From a virus: a stretch of 23,121 bases of DNA. The stretch is from positions 1 through 23,121 of the IMG/VR virus record IMGVR_UViG_3300021138_000181. One strand, written 5' to 3'. Position 1 is the first letter of the stretch; the number at the start of each line of letters is the position of its first letter. The notes under the pieces were generated by a model. That model did no database searches. It was not told the DNA's origin and worked only from the letters and a program-made list of their open reading frames with translations. This document shows positions 4,313-21,819 of the stretch, piece after piece. A program made the position numbers and the translations under genes.

Positions 4313-4735
4313 TCAATCGTGTTCAGGCTCGTAAGACGTGTGCTTTGGTGGTTCCATGCCCTTATGGGCCGTCGAGAATGGGTGCATGTTTGCACCTACT
4401 TCGCCACCGCTCTTGCGAGCCTTACGGTCTGCACGATGCTTAGCATGTTCGCCGTGGACGGCATGCTCTGCATGGACATGACCACCACGCTTGCGTTTTG
4501 CGCGGTGTTCAGCCTTTGGATGCTCATGGTGATGCTCTTTGTGCTTAGCATTGTGATGAGCTACATGCCCACCATGCTTGCGCTTCGTGCGGCCACCATG
4601 CTTACGCTCTTCAGCCTCGTGTTCCGTAGGCGAATCCTTGCCTTCGTACACGTCGGTAACGGGGGCATCCTTGTAGATGTCACCCTTTTCTGCTTCACCA
4701 CCCTTGGCGTGGTGTTTACGGGTATGTGCCTTCAT
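4313..4735 (-). CDS. Histidine/lysine-rich protein with KxGG repeats
   Basis: A 140-residue highly charged protein with 25 histidines (18%), many in clusters (EHHHEH at 67-72, HVHAEHAVHGEHAKH at 86-100). Short repeats of basic residues followed by Gly-Gly occur at KHGGR, KHGGH, KRGGH and KSGGE. RADRKARKSGG at 101-111 is identical to a segment of the 425-residue protein at 11885-13162. The sequence looks disordered, with no hydrophobic core. A metal-binding, DNA-condensing or packaged-internal-protein role is possible but only inferred. Shine-Dalgarno AAGGA lies before the start, immediately after the stop of the upstream structural gene. The hydrophobic frame on the opposite strand is a codon mirror of this His/Lys-rich sequence. 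Confidence 0.75.
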   Translation of the reverse strand: MKAHTRKHHAKGGEAEKGDIYKDAPVTDVYEGKDSPTEHEAEERKHGGRTKRKHGGHVAHHNAKHKEHHHEHPKAEHRAKRKRGGHVHAEHAVHGEHAKHRADRKARKSGGEVGANMHPFSTAHKGMEPPKHTSYEPEHD

Positions 4736-5939: not shown

Positions 5940-6434
5940 TTACCCTTTCTGAGTATCCACGAGTTTCGTCACAACTTGCCTTTGATCAGAATACTTGTCT
6001 AGGTATTTTATTGCTGAAAGAAAAATATTACGGTTTTCTTTCAGTTTACCAATACCCGTATTGCAATCCGAACAAAGAAGCCCTCTTACTTTCCCACTTT
6101 TATGATCATGATCTACAGCTAACGCTTTGACCTTACCATTCCGAGTGGCAGTTTCAGGGAGTGAGCATATCGCGCACGTACCGTTTTGTGAGTGGAATAT
6201 TTCGGCATACTCTTGACGAGTAATGCCAAAACGCCGTTCACGTTCTCTGTCACTTAAGACATCACGGTTTTGTTCACGATACAATGCCTGATACGCACGA
6301 ATTGCCTCGACCTTTTGAGGGTTTTGGCGAGACTTAGCATGAGAACGCCGGCTATTTTCCCTGACTTTTTCAGGATTATTTTTCCGATATTCTGCCGCTC
6401 TAAGTCGATTTTTTTCGCGCGTATCAATTGACAT
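5940..6434 (-). CDS. HNH / recombination endonuclease VII family nuclease
   Basis: A 164-residue protein with an Arg/Lys/Glu-rich helical N-terminus and a C-terminal endonuclease VII fold. Visible motifs are C87-x2-C90 (TCAIC), the catalytic region AVDHDHKSGKVRGLLC (D108, H109, D110, H111) and C121-x2-C124-N125 (CSDCNTGIGKL). The four cysteines would bind structural zinc, with His/Asn/Asp at the active site. In T4 the family resolves branched DNA, but stand-alone copies in phage late operons are usually homing endonucleases. The position between major capsid and a structural gene, the weak Shine-Dalgarno (AAGTGA) and a more A+T-rich sequence than the neighbours fit an inserted homing gene. 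All key residues are present, so it looks active. Confidence 0.9.
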   Translation of the reverse strand: MSIDTREKNRLRAAEYRKNNPEKVRENSRRSHAKSRQNPQKVEAIRAYQALYREQNRDVLSDRERERRFGITRQEYAEIFHSQNGTCAICSLPETATRNGKVKALAVDHDHKSGKVRGLLCSDCNTGIGKLKENRNIFLSAIKYLDKYSDQRQVVTKLVDTQKG

Positions 6435-9568: not shown

Positions 9569-9961
9569 TTACCAAACTGCATCAGGAGCCGGAATGCGGC
9601 CACGAATGTCGATGTCACGCAAAACGCGGCATTCCACGCCATGAACAGTCATCTTCCAGCCATCAGATGGACGGAACACAACCCAATCTTCCAGATTAAC
9701 CTCAACGCCCTTAAACCAGTCCTGATCTTCATCAACGAACGCGAGTGGACCCTTCTTAACGACAAGACCAACCTTGCCCTGATAGCGATCCTCATCGACA
9801 TACTTGTCTGTCAAATGGATGCCGCTCTTTGTCTTGTTGGGACGAATATATGTAGCTACAAGAACGTGTGTATTAAAAATTTCGATACCGCTAATATCGC
9901 CAAGCTCTTTCAAGATGGTTTCTTTAGGGTCAACGTCATGGTGCATGCGCGTATATGGCAT
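9569..9961 (-). CDS. GroES-like co-chaperonin (Cpn10)
   Basis: A 130-residue protein with the Cpn10 layout. GIEIFNTHVLVATYIR forms the first strand. A mobile-loop-like segment RPNKTKSGIHLTDKYVDED (40-58) has I48-H49-L50 at the site equivalent to the I-V-L that docks on GroEL. Then come QGKVGLVVKKGP, a longer than usual roof-region insert (FVDEDQDWFKGVEVN), WVVFRPSDGWKMTVHG, and a C-terminal VECRVLRDIDIRGRI strand. Phage relatives (T4 gp31, RB49 CocO) replace host GroES so that GroEL can fold the phage capsid protein. Its place in the head block supports that role. AGAGGATAAC precedes the ATG, one base after the preceding stop. Confidence 0.85.
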   Translation of the reverse strand: MPYTRMHHDVDPKETILKELGDISGIEIFNTHVLVATYIRPNKTKSGIHLTDKYVDEDRYQGKVGLVVKKGPLAFVDEDQDWFKGVEVNLEDWVVFRPSDGWKMTVHGVECRVLRDIDIRGRIPAPDAVW

Positions 9962-11884: not shown

Positions 11885-13162
11885 TTATTTCAGACCGTAT
11901 GCCTTGATTTTCTCAAGACGGCCCAATCCACCACCAGCAGCATTATCAATGATATGCTCTGGCTTATCGCTGTTCTCAACGCGACCACCAGCCTTACGAC
12001 CCATTGGAGGCATGCCCGGACGAGCAGCACCCATAGGAGGCATTCCGCCGCCCATAGGAGGCATTCCGCCCATTGGCGCACCTGATGGCATACCGCCCAT
12101 AGGAGGCACTGCCACGGGGCGCGGAGGAGGCGCAATCGGAGCACCGACTGGCATTGGTGGGTTCATAGCCATGTTAGGGTTATGCGGGTGAATCATAATG
12201 TTCACGTTCGTCTTACCCTTGCTTAAGCCACCGCCACGCTTTTTAGCCGTGCGACCGCCATCAGCACCCGGAACTTCATGTGGGTAGTTCTGGCGCACAT
12301 ACAAATCGCGACCAGCCTTGCCGCCATCTGCATGATGCATGCGCTTAAGCGTTTCAGCCAGATGAGCCTTCTTTGCAAGCTTCGGATTCTTGCTATGCTC
12401 AGCCTTCTTCAGCTTGCTTGCAGGAATCTTTTCGCCCTCTGGAACATGCAATGCACGATGCAGCGAACCCTTGTGCTTGATAGCACCCTGAATCCACTTT
12501 TCGCCGCCATGAGCCTTGCCAGTGCGAGCCTCTGGCTTAACCATCTTGCGAATGAGTGCCTTATCTTCAGCCTCATCAGGATGTGCAGCGCCGCCCTTAG
12601 CATGTTTCGCGCGAATCTTGCCGCCCTTTTTCGCACCTTGCGTAGTAAGGTTCGTGTTAGGCATATAATGATCTTGTTGAACTGGCCGACGAGGGGGCAT
12701 TGGAACACGGGCCGGAATGCCACGGTTCTTCATGCCCTGTTCAATCTCAGCTTGACGAATAATCTGTGCAATCTGGTCTTGCGAACCAACGGGATCGCCA
12801 TCAGCGTGATGTTCGCGCTTAACCTTGCCGCCCTTCTTCATGCCGCCGATGTGCTTAACACCGTCGCGCTGGAAGTTGGCTTCCTTAGCGTCGCGATTAA
12901 TAAGCGAATCGACCGTCAGTGCGCGACCACCCGACTTACGGGCTTTACGGTCAGCGCGTTTCTTCGACATATCGCCATGAACTTTGCCACCGGACTTATA
13001 CTGGCGTGGGCTAACAGGACGCATGCCCGTCTTCTTGCCAGCATTTTCCATTGCAGGTGGCGTCCATGTGGACGAATCAACCTCCGTGTGTGGCTCACCG
13101 GACTCAATGTCCTTTAACCGCTTTGCCGCTCCGTCACGGGCAGCTTTAAGATATTCATGCAT
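11885..13162 (-). CDS. Modular basic protein with GGK tags and MPPMGG repeats
   Basis: A 425-residue, strongly basic, mostly disordered protein with several parts: (1) helical N-terminus (MHEYLKAARDGAAKRLKDIE); (2) dispersed tags YKSGGKV, RKSGGRA, KKGGKV, KKGGKI, HAKGG and KRGGG; (3) a compact helical domain at 223-275 (WIQGAIKHKGSLHRALHVPE then KIPASKLKKAEHSKN), which I recognise from other phage proteins; (4) a Met/Pro/Gly region at 352-389 (MPPMGG repeats); (5) a C-terminal KAGGRVENSDKPEHII tail. ATG 13162 is chosen over an upstream TTG because GGAG lies seven bases before it. It shares RADRKARKSGG with the His-rich protein. It may be an internal or DNA-binding virion protein; the function is unknown. 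Confidence 0.75.
   Translation of the reverse strand: MHEYLKAARDGAAKRLKDIESGEPHTEVDSSTWTPPAMENAGKKTGMRPVSPRQYKSGGKVHGDMSKKRADRKARKSGGRALTVDSLINRDAKEANFQRDGVKHIGGMKKGGKVKREHHADGDPVGSQDQIAQIIRQAEIEQGMKNRGIPARVPMPPRRPVQQDHYMPNTNLTTQGAKKGGKIRAKHAKGGAAHPDEAEDKALIRKMVKPEARTGKAHGGEKWIQGAIKHKGSLHRALHVPEGEKIPASKLKKAEHSKNPKLAKKAHLAETLKRMHHADGGKAGRDLYVRQNYPHEVPGADGGRTAKKRGGGLSKGKTNVNIMIHPHNPNMAMNPPMPVGAPIAPPPRPVAVPPMGGMPSGAPMGGMPPMGGGMPPMGAARPGMPPMGRKAGGRVENSDKPEHIIDNAAGGGLGRLEKIKAYGLK
12030..12113. repeat. 21-base-period repeat encoding MPPMGG units
   Basis: Two perfect 20-base copies (CCCATAGGAGGCATTCCGCC) at 12030-12049 and 12051-12070, and a third partly matching copy at 12096-12113. They lie within the 425-residue protein gene and encode Pro-Met-Gly-Gly units in frame. 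Identical third-position bases suggest recent duplication by slippage or recombination. Confidence 0.85.
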
Positions 13163-13240
13163 AAACTTGCTCCATAGCTGCGGCAACGCAGTTGCTGTAG
13201 TTGAATATTATCCTATTTTTTCCATTGGCACAACATTTGA

Positions 13241-14848
13241 TCACGATTTGTTCTCACCAGTAAGCATACGAAGTGCATTAGCGATGGCGTTGTTATTGTT
13301 AATCTTTCCACCATTGGCGGCGGCAGTGTAGCCCGGCGACATGTTCCAATTGATGTTATTGCCATAGGTGTAGTCTGTTGAGCCGAGGTTTTGATAACCA
13401 TAGTTTTGCGGCGTTACATATTGCGCAGCAGGATAAGCAGCCGACGGTACAGGAACATTGGGGTGTTTAGGCCCATAGCCAGTAGCCGCCGCGTTAACGC
13501 CCTGATTGCCGCCCAGATTGCCACGCTGTCCAAGGTCACTTGTCGGATCACGATATACCGTATTGCCAAGCTTACCGCTTAACAAATCCGATAGCGTATT
13601 CCCCGTAGGTACACCCGCAGTCAGCAAGCCAGCTTTATACGCAGCGTCATATTGCGCTTGCGACATGTTCTGCACGTCTTGCGTATTCAACGAAATGCCA
13701 TTGTCAATCTTTTCCTGCACCGCCTGTTGTTTTGCCAGACCTTCAGGCGAAGTATCTTTGAATATTGAGCCTAACGAATTTTGCGTGGAATCGGTCGATG
13801 TCGTTTGACCATTGCCAGTTAAACCGCCGAGGATCGCTCCCAATATAGTTTTTGGAGGTGTTTGTGTCGCAATAGGCTGATCAGGATTAACGGGCGGTAA
13901 TGGCACGTTATCTGGCGATTGAGCAACAGTGGAAGGCTGCGTAGCTACCGGAGTGGTCGCGACAGTCGCAGGTGCTGGAGTGTTCCAGTTTTGCTGATCA
14001 GGACGTGGGATAGGCGTTGGAATTGATACATCCCCACCCATAGGTGCTTGCACTGGGGGAGAGTAAGCAAGAGTGGTAGGGGCAAGGTTCTGACCTAAAA
14101 TACTCGCCAACGATTGATCTGCGGAAGAACCAGCAACCCCAGTGTTCGGCGTTCCACCTACCCGAATAGGATTGTTGGGTGTGCCATCCGAAATAGGAGA
14201 ATTAAACTCAGCTTGTTGCTGAGCTTGCATTTGATTAAGAGCTTCTTTTTGTATGGCCTGTGCAGCCGTATTATATCCTAATGGGTTATTAGTAACATCT
14301 CCAGCACCAGCAGCTTGTGCCAGCCGAGCAGAAAGCCCACTCCCTAATGGAGCAGAATCGCTTAACCCAGCCGCTATTCTAGGATTTACAAATGAATACG
14401 TTGAAAGGTCTGGGGATTGATTCGGCGTGCTTGTCTGCGAATTAAACACATCAGTTTTGCTTTGTTGAGCCAAAGCATTGAGTTGGTTCTGCATTGCGGC
14501 AGATGCATCGGCTACAGCAAAAAGTCCGCTGTTCCCGCCGACTAAATTCGTCGATGCGCCACCATAATTACCTGTATCTGGCGAGCCTTGCTGGCTATCC
14601 TGACGTGCGGCTTCATCCGAAGAACGCTGTTCGGATTGCGATACGCTATCAGCGCGAGGGTTATCGCCACCGCCATCACCTGTATCATCGAACTCTAGCA
14701 AGCCCGTATGTGGGTTAATCTTGCCAGAGCCACCACGCTTCTTCAGCATAGCAGCTTCACGAGGGTTAATATGAGCAAGGATCGTGTCATTACCACGGCC
14801 TAGTTCTTGCGCAAGGCGAAGTGCGTCTCTTGTGCTTTTAGGCAGCAT
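13241..14848 (-). CDS. Low-complexity virion protein (535 aa)
   Basis: A 535-residue Gln/Asn/Pro/Ala/Gly/Ser-rich protein. Residues 19-53 (GNDTILAHINPREAAMLKKR then GGSGKINPHTGLLEF) form a motif I recognise from many uncultured phage proteins, where it marks long portal-proximal proteins of unknown role. The remainder is low complexity with short helical parts (QAIQKEALNQMQAQQQAEF) and proline-rich linkers. The C-terminus NGGKINNNNAIANALRMLTG resembles the ends of the proteins before and after it. The start overlaps the 589-residue gene by 11 bases, with GAGG upstream. No enzyme motif is seen. A role as an internal or ejected virion protein is inferred from position and composition only. Confidence 0.7.
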   Translation of the reverse strand: MLPKSTRDALRLAQELGRGNDTILAHINPREAAMLKKRGGSGKINPHTGLLEFDDTGDGGGDNPRADSVSQSEQRSSDEAARQDSQQGSPDTGNYGGASTNLVGGNSGLFAVADASAAMQNQLNALAQQSKTDVFNSQTSTPNQSPDLSTYSFVNPRIAAGLSDSAPLGSGLSARLAQAAGAGDVTNNPLGYNTAAQAIQKEALNQMQAQQQAEFNSPISDGTPNNPIRVGGTPNTGVAGSSADQSLASILGQNLAPTTLAYSPPVQAPMGGDVSIPTPIPRPDQQNWNTPAPATVATTPVATQPSTVAQSPDNVPLPPVNPDQPIATQTPPKTILGAILGGLTGNGQTTSTDSTQNSLGSIFKDTSPEGLAKQQAVQEKIDNGISLNTQDVQNMSQAQYDAAYKAGLLTAGVPTGNTLSDLLSGKLGNTVYRDPTSDLGQRGNLGGNQGVNAAATGYGPKHPNVPVPSAAYPAAQYVTPQNYGYQNLGSTDYTYGNNINWNMSPGYTAAANGGKINNNNAIANALRMLTGENKS

Positions 14849-16607
14849 GGTGATCCTCGTGGTCTAAATGTTTGCGAATTAAATCCATAGCATGATCTTC
14901 AATAGCTCCACCTGTATTTTGTCGTTGTACAGGAGTAGGATTAAACATAATCGCCATCGGGTTAGCATGATCAGGATGCGCTACGCCAGAATACCCATAT
15001 TCTTTTGCTAGGCGCTCAACATCATTCATTATTTGTTCATGTGGCACAGAATTAGGATTAAAATTTGATAATGGTGATGAAACATTCGACATTTTAGCTA
15101 AACGATAAAGTTTTGCTGGGTCGGATGATGCATCATATAAATTTTCTCCTTGCGCACCATATCTTGATGCACCAAGGCCCGGCTCAGGAGTAATTGAGTT
15201 GGGTTCGCCTAAATAAAAATATGTCCTATCTTTAATACCCCCCGCCAAAACTCTATTTCTTTCATCTCCGCGTAACCCAGTCCCATATTTTGAAGGGTCA
15301 GTCATAGTAAGTGACGGATTAGAACTATAATGAGTTAATGAGGATGAAAGAGTTGTCCCCTGTTCAGGTGTAATTAAAGGTTGTAAATATTCTGGAATAC
15401 CTCCGTTATAAGAAGTGCTTAAATATTCAGGCGGCAATAACACTGCTTTGTTAGGGGCAAAATTAAATTGATTATAAGCATCTTTTTTCAAATCTTTTAA
15501 TTTTTCCATTTCACTAGGCGTGCCAAATCTTTTGACATCAGCCATTTGTTTTTCAATTTCATAAATTCTTTCTTTAATATCAACATTGGCAGGGGTATAA
15601 TTTACAAAACTATTTTGTCCTCTTGTTTCAGCGGTCATCGCTAATTGCGCCAAAGGAGAGTACATTTGAGAATGCACACTCCATGCGCGTTCTTCCCCTT
15701 CTGGTCCAAAAGTGTTCCCAAATATTCCATGCCCGAAAGCATCATGAACTGCTCTAAATTTTTCGTTCTCATTTAAGCCTGTTTCAGGATCAATATTATG
15801 TAAAAAATCGTGTTTGTCCCCACCTTGAAACACAAAAAGATGACCATTGTCATGCAAATCGTGCAACATATTAGGGCTATCTACATAGTTACCTTCACCA
15901 TTTTGATGATACGAATACCTTAAAGGCAATGCTTGGAATTGGTCAGAAGTTTCTTTTGCCATCTGTTGATAAGCAGATTGAAGCAATTCATCATAATTTG
16001 ATGCTCCAGATTGTTTAATTACTTCGGGCATGCTCCGAGCATACGCATTAAAAATAATGTTTTTATATTCTGGATTATCTTCCGCAGCTAAAGCATATGT
16101 GCGCCCAATCGCGCTTTGTTTTGACAAAGACGAGGATGGCATGTTTGGTTGAGATATTTGGGGCAACCCACGAGAACTAACATATGTTTGCGCAGACTGA
16201 AGAGGAATATTTTGTTCTTCAGATGGCATTACCTTATAGGGTTTGTACGTTGTCTTATCATATTGTGTATCTCCGTATCTAATCGGTCCTGACCCGTTTG
16301 CGTCAGCGGGAGAGGCTGGCCATATTTGCTCTTCATTTGTTGAAGAAAACTGTCTATTTCCGCCAGAACTTTTTGGCGAGACTCGGTAGAACGGTCCATT
16401 TTGAGACGTTGCATAATTGGATTCCTTATTAATTGAAGGTGTTATTTCTGGTGTAGGCTGTTGTAACGTTTGTGTCGCAAGACGCAAAGCATTAGTTTCA
16501 TCGTCTGTAACAGAATGACCCGTGCTGCCACGCTGCTTAATAAACTCTGTACCAAGAGAATAAAGCGGAGACAACTCCCCCAATGGTTGGGTCAATTCAT
16601 TATCCAT
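14838..16607 (-). CDS. Two-domain candidate virion enzyme (HDxxGH domain + ART-like end)
   Basis: A 589-residue protein after the portal. Residues about 160-400 hold LHDLHDNGHLFVFQGG, KFRAVHDAFGHGIFGNTFGP (H288-x4-H293), HSQMYSPLAQLAMTAETRGQ (E327) and PNKAVLLPPEYL. I recall this block in other uncultured phage proteins without a known function. The H-x4-H...E order is like the iron site of aromatic amino-acid hydroxylases, suggesting a metal site; this is inference. Residues 424-563 (LTHYSSNPSLTMTDP, TYFYLGEP, LYDASSDPAKLY, ERLAKEYGYSGVAHPD, AIMFNP) recall ADP-ribosyltransferase-like domains of phage polyvalent proteins. The tail NTGGAIEDHAMDLIRKHLDH is shared in type with the next two proteins. 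The gene is visibly more A+T-rich than its neighbours, a sign of separate origin. Confidence 0.75.
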   Translation of the reverse strand: MDNELTQPLGELSPLYSLGTEFIKQRGSTGHSVTDDETNALRLATQTLQQPTPEITPSINKESNYATSQNGPFYRVSPKSSGGNRQFSSTNEEQIWPASPADANGSGPIRYGDTQYDKTTYKPYKVMPSEEQNIPLQSAQTYVSSRGLPQISQPNMPSSSLSKQSAIGRTYALAAEDNPEYKNIIFNAYARSMPEVIKQSGASNYDELLQSAYQQMAKETSDQFQALPLRYSYHQNGEGNYVDSPNMLHDLHDNGHLFVFQGGDKHDFLHNIDPETGLNENEKFRAVHDAFGHGIFGNTFGPEGEERAWSVHSQMYSPLAQLAMTAETRGQNSFVNYTPANVDIKERIYEIEKQMADVKRFGTPSEMEKLKDLKKDAYNQFNFAPNKAVLLPPEYLSTSYNGGIPEYLQPLITPEQGTTLSSSLTHYSSNPSLTMTDPSKYGTGLRGDERNRVLAGGIKDRTYFYLGEPNSITPEPGLGASRYGAQGENLYDASSDPAKLYRLAKMSNVSSPLSNFNPNSVPHEQIMNDVERLAKEYGYSGVAHPDHANPMAIMFNPTPVQRQNTGGAIEDHAMDLIRKHLDHEDHHAA

Positions 16608-16614
16608 AATTCAC

Positions 16615-18912
16615 CTACTTAATTGTGCCGTCAGGGCTAGTTTCCATCTCTGGCTCGTCGCCCTCTAGCCGCTGAAGCATGCTAGGGTCAATCAATTGCC
16701 GCGCAACGCCAAGCCCTTGTGGGTTAGCAGCCATCTCTTCAGCAAACTTGATTGCAGCCAAACGCTCACGGCTTTCGCGATCACGTTTGCGATTCGTGGC
16801 ATCAAGCTGAGCATCAATGTTTTTCTGCTGGATTTCGGCCATTTTGACCTGATCCTGTGGCGTGAGACTTTGAGTGCCGCCCGTCTTGCTCTGCATTTCC
16901 TGCACCTTGACCTGCGCTTCAGTCATTTTCGACTGAGCCGTGATCATAGCGGCCTGTGCGGCGGTCTGTGCGGCCATAGCCTGTGGGTCAGGCGGAGTGG
17001 GTTGGTTAACCGTGTCACGCAGCAACGAGGCAGGGTTAGCCCAGCCAAGGGTCAACAATGCCTCACGATTCACCGCGTCAAGATTGTACAAGTCAGGTGC
17101 TTGCTGAGCCAATTGGATCAGTGCCGTGACTTTCATGACGCGCTGGATGTGGCTTGCCGTGTTAGGATCGGCCTGTGGGACAAGTTCATAATTGCTGAGC
17201 GCCGAAATGAACGTCTGTTCATCCCATTTAGTCGCCGGACGCTTGTTGCGCTGCCAGAATGATTTTGGATGCTCACGGAAACACTCCGCAAGAAGCTGGA
17301 ACTCGTCAGCCTGAGCCGAATGAAGCCGCTTGTGAACGCTGTTAAGCACTTTCTGCGCTTGTTCAATGATTGCAAGCGTCGTCCCGACCGGAGCGTCCTG
17401 CTTACCCTCGCCAACTTGCAATTCGGATGTGCCGCCAACGCGCTGACCGTATTGACTAATACTTTCGGCTAATGCCTGAAGCGCACCTGACGGTTCTTTG
17501 TATGGCAATGGCATAACTGACTGCTGAATCGACATACCAGCCGTGTCAATCTGTGCGCCGCCGCCCGGAGGAACGCGGAAAATGTTACTATTCTGACGTC
17601 CGCTGGTTTTTGCGTACAAGAAGCCGGGGAAATTGGCATACATACCCGCATCAAGAAGCTCGCGCCACACTGCGGTCAATGCATTGGTCGTATTGCCAAG
17701 AATATGCAGCAATCCCATGCCGTAGAACTTCAAACCCGGCACAAAATCAAACTTTACAAAGTGAACGAGGGCTTCAGGCAAGTCCTGATCTTCTTCCTTG
17801 TAATTCCGAACGATATTGAGAACTTTTTTGGACGATACGTCGATGGTTACGCGGTATGGGACTTCAAGACCCGTTTCCTCGCCATCAATCTTATGCTCAA
17901 AACCGGGGATATCCAGTTCACAATAGCACTCATAAATCTCGCGATCACGATCTTCGACGTCTTTCACGTCACCTTCGACGCCACCAATCGCATTTTTTTC
18001 AAGTTGAACGGCATTAAGCTCTTTTTCTTTGGCTTGCCCCAGATCAACATCGCGATATGCGCCAATAATCTGCATCCGTTTGACCACAGATGGCCGCATG
18101 GAAATCTTATGCGTGATGCGACGCGCATTTGATAGGTCTGTAGCTTCATTGTTGACGATCAGATCGTCTGCATCGACCGTTTCCGACACTGGGCGGTTAC
18201 GAAGTGGGCAAAAATAAACCTTTTTGAACGATGACCCACCAAAGCCAAGCATAAACAGCATCTTATCCGTGTCAGGATAGTACTCTTTGGCTACTGCGGT
18301 CAGATAATGGTTAAAATCGCGCTCCAAATACTCTGCCATTTGATCGACATCAGGCGAATCCTGATTGCCATCAACGCGAACCTTTACAGGTCCATCCGTG
18401 GGCAGTAGTTCTGACCGCGCGTTTGCTTGAAATCGTAGCACAGCTTCGAGCAAGAGCGGATGCCGAATGCGTGACATACCCTCAACGGGTGCGCCGTCTG
18501 CCGTTCCTTGCTGGCCGGGGATTTCAATTTTGAGGCCAAGTAGGCGTAAACCTTGCGCACGATCTTCAATCCACTCTTTTCGGCTTTCAATATCTTCTTC
18601 AATGCCCTTGATTAGCTTTTCAGCAATCGTTGACAGTTCACTCTCGCCAATATCGTCAGCCAGATTCTCATACCAGCCTCCGTTTTTGCTCTTTTTAGCC
18701 GATTGAATAGGCCGACCGTCAAGCGAAACGCTTATAGAGCCGTCACCGTGGTCAATACGGAGTACATTACCGCTGGCGTCGAGTTCGGGAAGATCGGCAT
18801 CCTCGTCAGCATCCATGACGACAACAGTATCCTGCCCTTCGTCAAGGTTATCATTTGGTTGATTTTGATCCAGACGAAGATTGGCTGGAACGAGACCGGG
18901 CGTCAGTGCCAT
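16615..18912 (-). CDS. Portal protein
   Basis: A 765-residue portal of the podovirus type, forming the dodecameric ring at one capsid vertex through which DNA enters and leaves. Signature parts are a helical start (IEEDIESRKEWIEDRAQGLR), RHPLLLEAVLRFQANARSEL, LPTDGPVKVRV, DTDKMLFMLGFGGSSFKKVY, a wing region with RITHKISMRPSVVKRMQII, FVPGLKFYGMGLLHILGNTT with ALTAVWRELLDAGMYANFPG, and VGEGKQDAPVGTTLAIIEQA. The C-terminal Gln/Ala/Lys-rich helical barrel (AAQTAAQAAMITAQSKMTEA) is long. ATG 18912 is preferred over the TTG at 18951 because AGGA lies eight bases upstream of it. It follows the terminase and small genes, the usual order. Confidence 0.9.
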   Translation of the reverse strand: MALTPGLVPANLRLDQNQPNDNLDEGQDTVVVMDADEDADLPELDASGNVLRIDHGDGSISVSLDGRPIQSAKKSKNGGWYENLADDIGESELSTIAEKLIKGIEEDIESRKEWIEDRAQGLRLLGLKIEIPGQQGTADGAPVEGMSRIRHPLLLEAVLRFQANARSELLPTDGPVKVRVDGNQDSPDVDQMAEYLERDFNHYLTAVAKEYYPDTDKMLFMLGFGGSSFKKVYFCPLRNRPVSETVDADDLIVNNEATDLSNARRITHKISMRPSVVKRMQIIGAYRDVDLGQAKEKELNAVQLEKNAIGGVEGDVKDVEDRDREIYECYCELDIPGFEHKIDGEETGLEVPYRVTIDVSSKKVLNIVRNYKEEDQDLPEALVHFVKFDFVPGLKFYGMGLLHILGNTTNALTAVWRELLDAGMYANFPGFLYAKTSGRQNSNIFRVPPGGGAQIDTAGMSIQQSVMPLPYKEPSGALQALAESISQYGQRVGGTSELQVGEGKQDAPVGTTLAIIEQAQKVLNSVHKRLHSAQADEFQLLAECFREHPKSFWQRNKRPATKWDEQTFISALSNYELVPQADPNTASHIQRVMKVTALIQLAQQAPDLYNLDAVNREALLTLGWANPASLLRDTVNQPTPPDPQAMAAQTAAQAAMITAQSKMTEAQVKVQEMQSKTGGTQSLTPQDQVKMAEIQQKNIDAQLDATNRKRDRESRERLAAIKFAEEMAANPQGLGVARQLIDPSMLQRLEGDEPEMETSPDGTIK

Positions 18913-18974
18913 TTGCGGTATCCTATTGGAGTTCCGCGCATTATATGGCAATTACGTTTAATTCGCAAACGCGA

Positions 18975-20079: not shown

Positions 20080-21774
20080 TCAGACTGGGTACAAGGGCAT
20101 GCTATCCTTGTTCCCCACCCATTGATTCATGCTGGCAAGCTCTGCCGTGCGTTCTGCGCCGCGTTGTAGCATTCCGGTCGAACGTAGCCAATTCAATGCT
20201 TGCGTTACCGTGTCGTGCAAATCGTCATGTTTGCCTTTTGGGAACGTTGCGCATTGAGCCACTACCATTTCAGCCCAAACGCGGAAAACGTCGCCAGCGG
20301 GGTCTGTAGGGGCTACAATCATGCCTTCAGAGAACAGATGCTGAATTGAATAGGTACGTGCGACTTTATCTAAACCTTTGGGGTCGATAAGCCGAACGCC
20401 ATAGCTCTCCGCGCCAAATAGACGCCGTAGCTCTTGGCTGACGGATATACCCGATGCTTTGTTTTCAATCAGGAGCATATCAATCTTCCACTCCTTCGCA
20501 GATGCAGCAATCTTCTGCACAAGCTCGTGAAGTTCCATTCTGCCTTGCCAAGCATGCATCAAAATGGCCTTTGGAACGTCGGCTTCGCGATCTTCGGCGG
20601 AAATACGCTGCCAGCTACCGCCCATATCGCCACCCACGATGCCCGTTGTCGGGCCAGAATCGCGATAAACGCCCCAAATCGTGCAAGCCGAAAAATCGCC
20701 TTCAAATTCTTTTGCGCCAAATGCCGTATCAACCGACGCAATAACGATCTCAAGGTTGTGCGGGTACTTTTCTTTCGTCCACTCACCCCACCATTCACGC
20801 TTCAAAATACCACCACCCGCAGGTTCTGGTCGCTGTTGAAGCTGTCCGGCAGTCGCATATGGCCCTAATGTCTTTTCAAGCAAGGTAACTTCTTGCTCGC
20901 CAAAACGTTCCGGCCACAAAAGTTGATTCTCTGATTCGCGCGGATCAGTCCAGATAACCGCCTCGCCATCGTTAAACTCCGCCGGAACGAGAACATTGTA
21001 AGTGCGACGCGCTGGTTCAAAACGCATTGGCAAGCACAAATGCGTCCACTCGCCTACGTCCTTCGACAGAATATGACCTGTAATATCCTGCTCCGATAGA
21101 CGCTGCTGAATGACGATTTTTACGCCCTTCTTCGGATCGTTCAAACGGGTTGACCATGCCATGTCCCACCATTCGATGGTTGAGGCAATGATCGCTTCCG
21201 AATTGGCTTCCTGAGCATTGTTCGGATCGTCGGCCATGAGGTAGTTGCCGCCCAAACCAGTCGTTGCCGATCCCACCGACACTGTATTTCGAATGCCATT
21301 CTGGTCGTTTTGAAAACGCGTTTTTGTATTTTGATCGCCTACAAGCTTAAATCTTTCGCCCCACAACGTTTGATACCACTTGCTTTCGATCAGGCGGCGG
21401 CATTTAACCGAATCCTGAATAGACAAGTTCATGGCGTATGAAGAGTGAAGGAATTGCATGCCCGGCCCGGATGTCGGGCTTTTTAATTCTTGCGCCCACA
21501 CCCAAGCTGGGAACATAGTCCCAGTAATGGTTGATTTTGAAAATCGTGGCGGAACATTTATGATTAAATTCCTAATATAACCATCGCAACAAGCTTGTAG
21601 ATGCTCGCAAATAGCTTGCAAAGCAAAACCACCATGAGCAAACGGCGCAGAATCAACCTCACGCCAAGCCCTGACAGTAAAGTCATAAAGGCTTTCCTCG
21701 TAATTTTTAGCCTTTAACTGGCGAACGAGTTCGCGCCGCTGGCCTTCTGTCAGGTTTTGGATATCTAATGCCAT
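20080..21774 (-). CDS. Terminase large subunit
   Basis: A 564-residue DNA-packaging motor with an N-terminal ATPase and a C-terminal RNase H-like nuclease. Visible motifs: Walker A at 73-82 (NVPPRFSKST, with Ser where Gly usually precedes the Lys), Walker B NYLMADDP at 177-184, coupling motif VIQQRLSEQDITGHIL at 221-236, and nuclease acidic residues D349 (ASVDTAFGA), E437 (LLIENKASGIS) and D517/D518/D521 (KHDDLHDTV). It packages DNA through the portal and cuts it. ATG 21774 is chosen over a TTG at 21783; neither has a clear Shine-Dalgarno. Both catalytic halves look complete. No convincing small subunit lies next to it. Confidence 0.95.
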   Translation of the reverse strand: MALDIQNLTEGQRRELVRQLKAKNYEESLYDFTVRAWREVDSAPFAHGGFALQAICEHLQACCDGYIRNLIINVPPRFSKSTITGTMFPAWVWAQELKSPTSGPGMQFLHSSYAMNLSIQDSVKCRRLIESKWYQTLWGERFKLVGDQNTKTRFQNDQNGIRNTVSVGSATTGLGGNYLMADDPNNAQEANSEAIIASTIEWWDMAWSTRLNDPKKGVKIVIQQRLSEQDITGHILSKDVGEWTHLCLPMRFEPARRTYNVLVPAEFNDGEAVIWTDPRESENQLLWPERFGEQEVTLLEKTLGPYATAGQLQQRPEPAGGGILKREWWGEWTKEKYPHNLEIVIASVDTAFGAKEFEGDFSACTIWGVYRDSGPTTGIVGGDMGGSWQRISAEDREADVPKAILMHAWQGRMELHELVQKIAASAKEWKIDMLLIENKASGISVSQELRRLFGAESYGVRLIDPKGLDKVARTYSIQHLFSEGMIVAPTDPAGDVFRVWAEMVVAQCATFPKGKHDDLHDTVTQALNWLRSTGMLQRGAERTAELASMNQWVGNKDSMPLYPV

Positions 21775-21819
21775 GTCTAGCAATTAACACGCCAACAAAT
21801 GAATCACAAATGCGGGTGT

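Follow-up and report, generated by a model that had tools for sequence, protein, structure and literature searches.

The window, by which we mean the whole stretch of DNA examined (a viral record 23,121 bases long), encodes a protein of 589 residues in which residues 203-341 would constitute a metal-dependent enzyme domain of small size and mainly helical structure, acting early in infection for counter-defence or host takeover, a reading that, taken as a whole, we consider to have an even chance of being correct. H288, D289, H293, E305 and probably E327 would be the ligands of a divalent metal (Zn, Fe or Mn), contributed by three successive helices in a manner close to the HDxxH-x11-E site of COQ4. 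The domain is common, with at least 577 relatives on viral contigs of one viral collection, yet it carries no assigned function in any of the libraries searched. The features on which the argument depends are the following:

20080-21783, minus strand: likely large terminase (sub-threshold terminase matches only)
16615-18951, minus strand: portal protein gene (PF23899 SU10_portal, E 5e-14)
14838-16607, minus strand: gene of the 589-residue two-domain protein (open reading frame list; phrog_3170 match; close relatives on viral contigs)
15585-16001, minus strand: conserved domain core, residues 203-341 (AlphaFold2 pLDDT 94.2, pTM 0.88, 86 aligned sequences)
15753-15755, minus strand: R285, invariant and common to COQ4 as R-x2-HD (alignments)
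15729-15746, minus strand: H288-D289-A-F-G-H293, with H288, D289 and H293 as putative metal ligands (88/88; alignment A1; LKA1 branch included)
15693-15695, minus strand: E305, putative ligand at H293+12, compare HDxxH-x11-E (88/88; invariant with the LKA1 branch included)
15672-15674, minus strand: H312, kept in the window family and absent from the LKA1 branch (87/88; alignment A3)
15627-15629, minus strand: E327 in ETRGQ, putative further ligand (87/88; A2-A3 profile alignment)
15471-15593, minus strand: helical hairpin past the core, approximately residues 339-379 (from the AlphaFold2 model of residues 150-402)
14892-15401, minus strand: C-terminal domain of the 589-residue protein, about residues 403-572 (61 loci by phmmer)

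Residues 209-338 of the protein match phrog_3170 (E 5e-16), which is the domain's own family, differing in nothing essential and having no functional annotation; its profile HMM matches all 82 members of the alignment of the window family (A2). Neither Pfam nor NCBIfam holds a match to the domain, searches of Pfam, NCBIfam and PDB sequences returned nothing convincing, and a literature search found no papers on phrog_3170, on phrog_7806 (the distant branch described below) or on DUF3293 in connection with phages. The fold is predicted with confidence, for the core as well as for a longer construct comprising residues 150-402 (pLDDT 96.3). In the AlphaFold2 model of the core, the elements follow each other in the order helix, strand, helix, strand, HDxxxH helix and Glu helix, with HDxxxH closing one helix, E305 opening the following one and E327 lying within a third. 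The helical hairpin that follows is kept in close relatives only, being absent from solo and distant forms. When both constructs were compared with the PDB by Foldseek, no match was better than E 0.4 and no significant fold emerged.

The original prediction was of a candidate metal site formed by H288-D-A-F-G-H293 and, 34 residues further on, E327, and its positions are exact: once the residues are placed on the 589-residue reading frame, the span from H288 to E327 (in T325-A326-E327) coincides with 15627-15746 of the minus strand. The block FRAVHDxFGH...ETRGQNS...LLPP, which the original prediction placed in other phages, is present in them. The conservation of the motif is beyond chance. In a 10-sequence alignment (A1), for which relatives came from whole-protein tblastn without selection on the motif and identities go down to 20%, H288, D289, H293, E305 and E327 are invariant together with several neighbours. 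R285, H288, D289, H293, F300 and E305 are kept in all 88 non-redundant relatives, and E327 and H312 in 87 of the 88 each. Part of the larger relative set was fetched by patterns containing RAVHD or GE, and is therefore biased there but not for E327, so that the unbiased tests are A1 and, in the larger set, E327. Homologues devoid of H288, H293 or E327, which would count against the site, were looked for among the relatives, and the residues were found to be kept. The window family shares the invariant signature R-x2-HD-x3-H-x11-E, and in 149 of the 177 family reading frames E327 stands exactly 34 positions beyond H293. Across the family the His pair and the Glu are invariant, within a domain predicted with confidence, which is what one expects of a metal site or a catalytic one; R285, D289 and E305, which are equally conserved, had been overlooked.

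A search of a viral structure library retrieved small phage proteins from outside the sequence family, including ORF7 of Pseudomonas phage LKA1, which reads NAWFRAFHDLGH-x11-E. The alignment of LKA1 ORF7 relatives (A3) matches the window family with an hhalign E of 6e-8, the aligner itself pairing ETRGQNS with DTxGQS, and its HMM recovers window-family members with E 2e-7 to 5e-5. Judged by these profile comparisons, the LKA1 ORF7 family (phrog_7806) is homologous to the window family, of which it forms a distant sister branch. Both have N-x2-FR-x2-HD...H-x11-E and (D/E)T-x-G-Q, and the invariants common to them amount to R-x2-HD-x(2,3)-H-x11-E; the LKA1 branch differs in having a His pair closer by one residue (HDxxH), mostly Asp at the position of E327 (DTxGQ in the A2-A3 profile alignment) and no H312, and in being a solo early gene. 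This gene is the second of the genome in phi15 and the first in Issaku, and the first genome positions in T7-like phages are those of the gene 0.3 counter-defence proteins (T7 Ocr and the SAM-degrading enzyme of T3). Viral scans with single LKA1-branch proteins gave few loci. Relatives of LKA1 ORF7 (phrog_7806) were located at L178:3662-4228, L179:1329-1820 and L183:609-1109; they are early genes without an assigned function, and in some T7-like Pseudomonas phages they come first or second.

From the sequence comparisons, the complete signature appears to fit COQ4 better than the aromatic amino-acid hydroxylases. COQ4 (PF05019) is a Zn-dependent C1 decarboxylase of coenzyme Q biosynthesis, whose ligands have been proposed or mutated at positions that are invariant in the window family (PMC7615680, PMC9774615). 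Its metal motif is HDxxH-x11-E (PMC9774615), and in the paired mutants H142A-H146A and D143A-E158A both Zn stabilisation and product are lost (PMC7615680). This motif is exact in the LKA1 branch, whereas the HDxxxH-x11-E of the window family is one residue longer. Most of the COQ4 sequences collected have R-x2-HDxxH-x3-G-x6-GE, to be compared with R-x2-HD-x3-H-x3-G-x6-GE in the window family; beyond the additional residue between the His, the latter possesses extra invariant E327 and Q331, and the remaining sequence is not alignable. With the motif block aligned, the profile scores against COQ4 are 28.6 for the window family (A2) and 32.1 for the LKA1 family (A3), the maxima of 60 column-shuffled decoy profiles being 18.8 and 19.1, respectively. 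In profile-profile comparison, the hhalign probabilities were 17% and 48% and covered 31-35 columns, and the COQ4 HMM placed LKA1 ORF7 relatives, weakly, at the top of 6640 reading frames (E 0.008). Profile similarity to COQ4 is confined to those columns rather than spanning the whole domain, which has no Pfam match, and COQ4 (6E12) is not among the PDB fold matches listed, an absence that does not indicate a different fold. Membership of COQ4, or common ancestry with it, is not established, and neither is kinship with the hydroxylases, since the resemblance between motifs was what led to both comparisons. E327 has no equivalent in COQ4; its role may be to bind the substrate, or else a second metal.

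The resemblance to aromatic amino-acid hydroxylases, as originally proposed, would make H288, H293 and E327 a 2-His-1-carboxylate iron triad, possibly of an oxygenase. HDxFGH indeed has the same form as HDVFGH in bacterial phenylalanine hydroxylases, the Glu stands in a T-x-E context, and the profile score of the window family is 30.4 (27.3, over 26 columns, with the LKA1 branch added) with a decoy maximum of 19.3. The kinship is not supported: the similarity of the window family extends over no more than 14 columns near the hexapeptide, the score of the LKA1 branch, 20.0, falls within the decoys, the hydroxylase HMM has no true family match among the 6640 reading frames, the Glu lies at +34 instead of +40, and E305 and R285, just as invariant, are left without explanation. 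Hydroxylases are not among the listed PDB fold matches of the core, and the one PheH chain among the matches of the long construct aligns to the C-terminal hairpin only. In the bacterial enzymes (PF00351), HDxFGH and a later Glu are alike, but the pterin and substrate regions fall outside the alignment with the window family. Membership of this family was rejected, as no match of the domain to Pfam Biopterin_H is reported and the similarity stays in the neighbourhood of the hexapeptide; a hydroxylase-type iron site is, in our estimate, very improbable. A derived zincin (gluzincin) metallopeptidase, in which HExxH has become HDxx(x)H and the next helix supplies the Glu, would accommodate the order of elements in the core, and the best PDB rows are those of selecase (Foldseek E 0.7; VIA Z 3.7), abylysin (3.4) and IrrE (3.3); yet globins reach 3.4, all of these values are below any useful limit, and the core VIA rows decide nothing because globins score alongside gluzincins, while those of the long construct fall for the most part on the hairpin around residues 339-383. 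The window family has one residue more between the His than HExxH, the M78 and MPTase-PolyVal profiles score 16.2 and 16.1 against it, which is the level of decoys, and the catalytic Glu is replaced by Asp without exception (HD in 88/88). For M49 peptidases, with HELLGH...EECRAE, the sampled genomes contained no sequences. LKA1 itself has HDLGH, and HExxxH variants are known in polyvalent proteins, for whose MPTases a role in processing polyvalent proteins or cutting a host protein has been proposed (PMC5512222). Such a peptidase, with either of these tasks, we regard as rather unlikely.

It is also conceivable that the domain serves virion proteins for structure or binding, without catalysis; its conserved polar residues would then do no more than keep the fold stable, perhaps by surrounding a structural metal. 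The window copy does lie among head genes, and the domain has no known activity, but many of the polar residues stay invariant whether the domain occurs alone, on plasmids, in chromosomes or within giant proteins, and most copies are not beside portal genes; we consider this explanation unlikely. A domain that works like a His/His/carboxylate metalloenzyme remains the most economical reading of the data.

The contexts in which such an enzyme domain is found are varied, and comprise solo proteins, giant polyvalent proteins, plasmids and chromosomes, with sizes from about 190-240 residues for solo forms up to 2191-3250 residues for polyvalent proteins. Relatives detected by tblastn include those of Microcystis and Planktothrix phages, mycobacteriophages, a 188-residue protein of Streptomyces phage Dagobah, a Bacillus phage and actinobacterial plasmid proteins. 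Three of the four giants scanned contain ART-PolyVal, DUF3293, LPD38, GNAT or DUF7178 domains, and several effector-type domains occur in one polypeptide in relatives of 2263-2801 residues, while the window protein has two domains. Polyvalent proteins of phages and conjugative elements (PMC5512222) resemble the giants bearing the domain in being multidomain, with ART-PolyVal, LPD38, GNAT and DUF3293; the window domain differs in being outside the LPD models contained in Pfam, as follows from its lack of any Pfam match. DUF3293 is found within the same protein as the domain in L067, L069, L086, L093 and L099 (residues 1156-1224 in the last) and as a neighbouring reading frame in L102 (5654-6097), L103 and L113. 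The L102 copy of DUF3293 matches the S-adenosylmethionine lyase family PF23780 weakly (E 0.002). A few genes from the domain gene of a Microbacterium plasmid there is an ArdC-like gene.

In phages and plasmids the domain would be an early-acting module, reaching the host cell by one of two routes. Where its gene lies with virion genes, or where it is part of a polyvalent protein, it may be packaged and enter with the DNA, as could be the case for the window copy beside the portal; alternatively, it would be the product of one of the first genes to enter. There, the enzyme would bring about a chemical change in a molecule of the host or one related to defence, and we propose that host defence is blunted or takeover helped in this way, probably as counter-defence or host takeover. 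The role in the virion or in early infection suggested in the original prediction is plausible. If the proposal is true, it would account for a module often met in early and polyvalent proteins of phages, and perhaps also for a recurrent gene of actinobacterial CRISPR-linked cassettes. The role can be tested directly, since candidate ligands are named, a solo form is compact and relatives occur among early and defence genes. That the domain represents a new superfamily of metal enzymes, distant kin of COQ4, spread over phages, plasmids and a CRISPR-linked bacterial defence cassette, which within minutes of the start of infection modifies or destroys a small molecule essential to host defence, is a more far-reaching possibility that we think improbable.

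The bacterial cassette is recurrent in Micromonosporaceae, where 11 of 61 genomes have a profile match, and involves one solo type of 219-265 residues in 27 copies (loci L109-L112, L114-L147 in part, and L163). All 27 loci have an adjoining gene for an N6-methylase, 25 a kinase, 21 a UvrD-like helicase and 21 a type I-E Cas3, and in 17 a CRISPR array is found at a distance of at most 5 kb. The cassette loci named are L109, L110, L112, L114, L117, L133 and L147, in addition to about 20 more from Micromonosporaceae. Among the PADLOC matches of neighbouring genes are MTase_I, PD-T4-6, GajB and, from MADS, the proteins mad2, mad6 and mad8, so that the cassette may be a MADS-like, CRISPR-linked defence module. 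For the cellular copies in defence clusters, the role could be defence and not counter-defence.

Returning to the window, its minus strand carries a tailed-phage head module, likely including scaffold and major head genes, and the gene of the 589-residue protein starts a few bases past the end of the portal gene, directly downstream of it. The proximity to the portal, which was noted originally, applies to this genome and some close relatives, but not beyond those. The C-terminal domain (HYS...YGTG...ER.YFY...GYSG...FEPTPV) is inherited together with the putative metal-site domain in 61 loci, and its consensus hints at a weak similarity to ART-like phage domains. A GroES-like co-chaperonin gene (9569-9961; PF00166, E 3e-7) adjoins the head genes, and a recombination endonuclease VII-type gene (5940-6434; PF02945, E 7e-25), possibly a mobile endonuclease, abuts the putative major head gene. 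Finally, two proteins very rich in His, Lys and Arg are encoded at 4313-4735 and 11885-13186, with RADRKARKSGG common to both.
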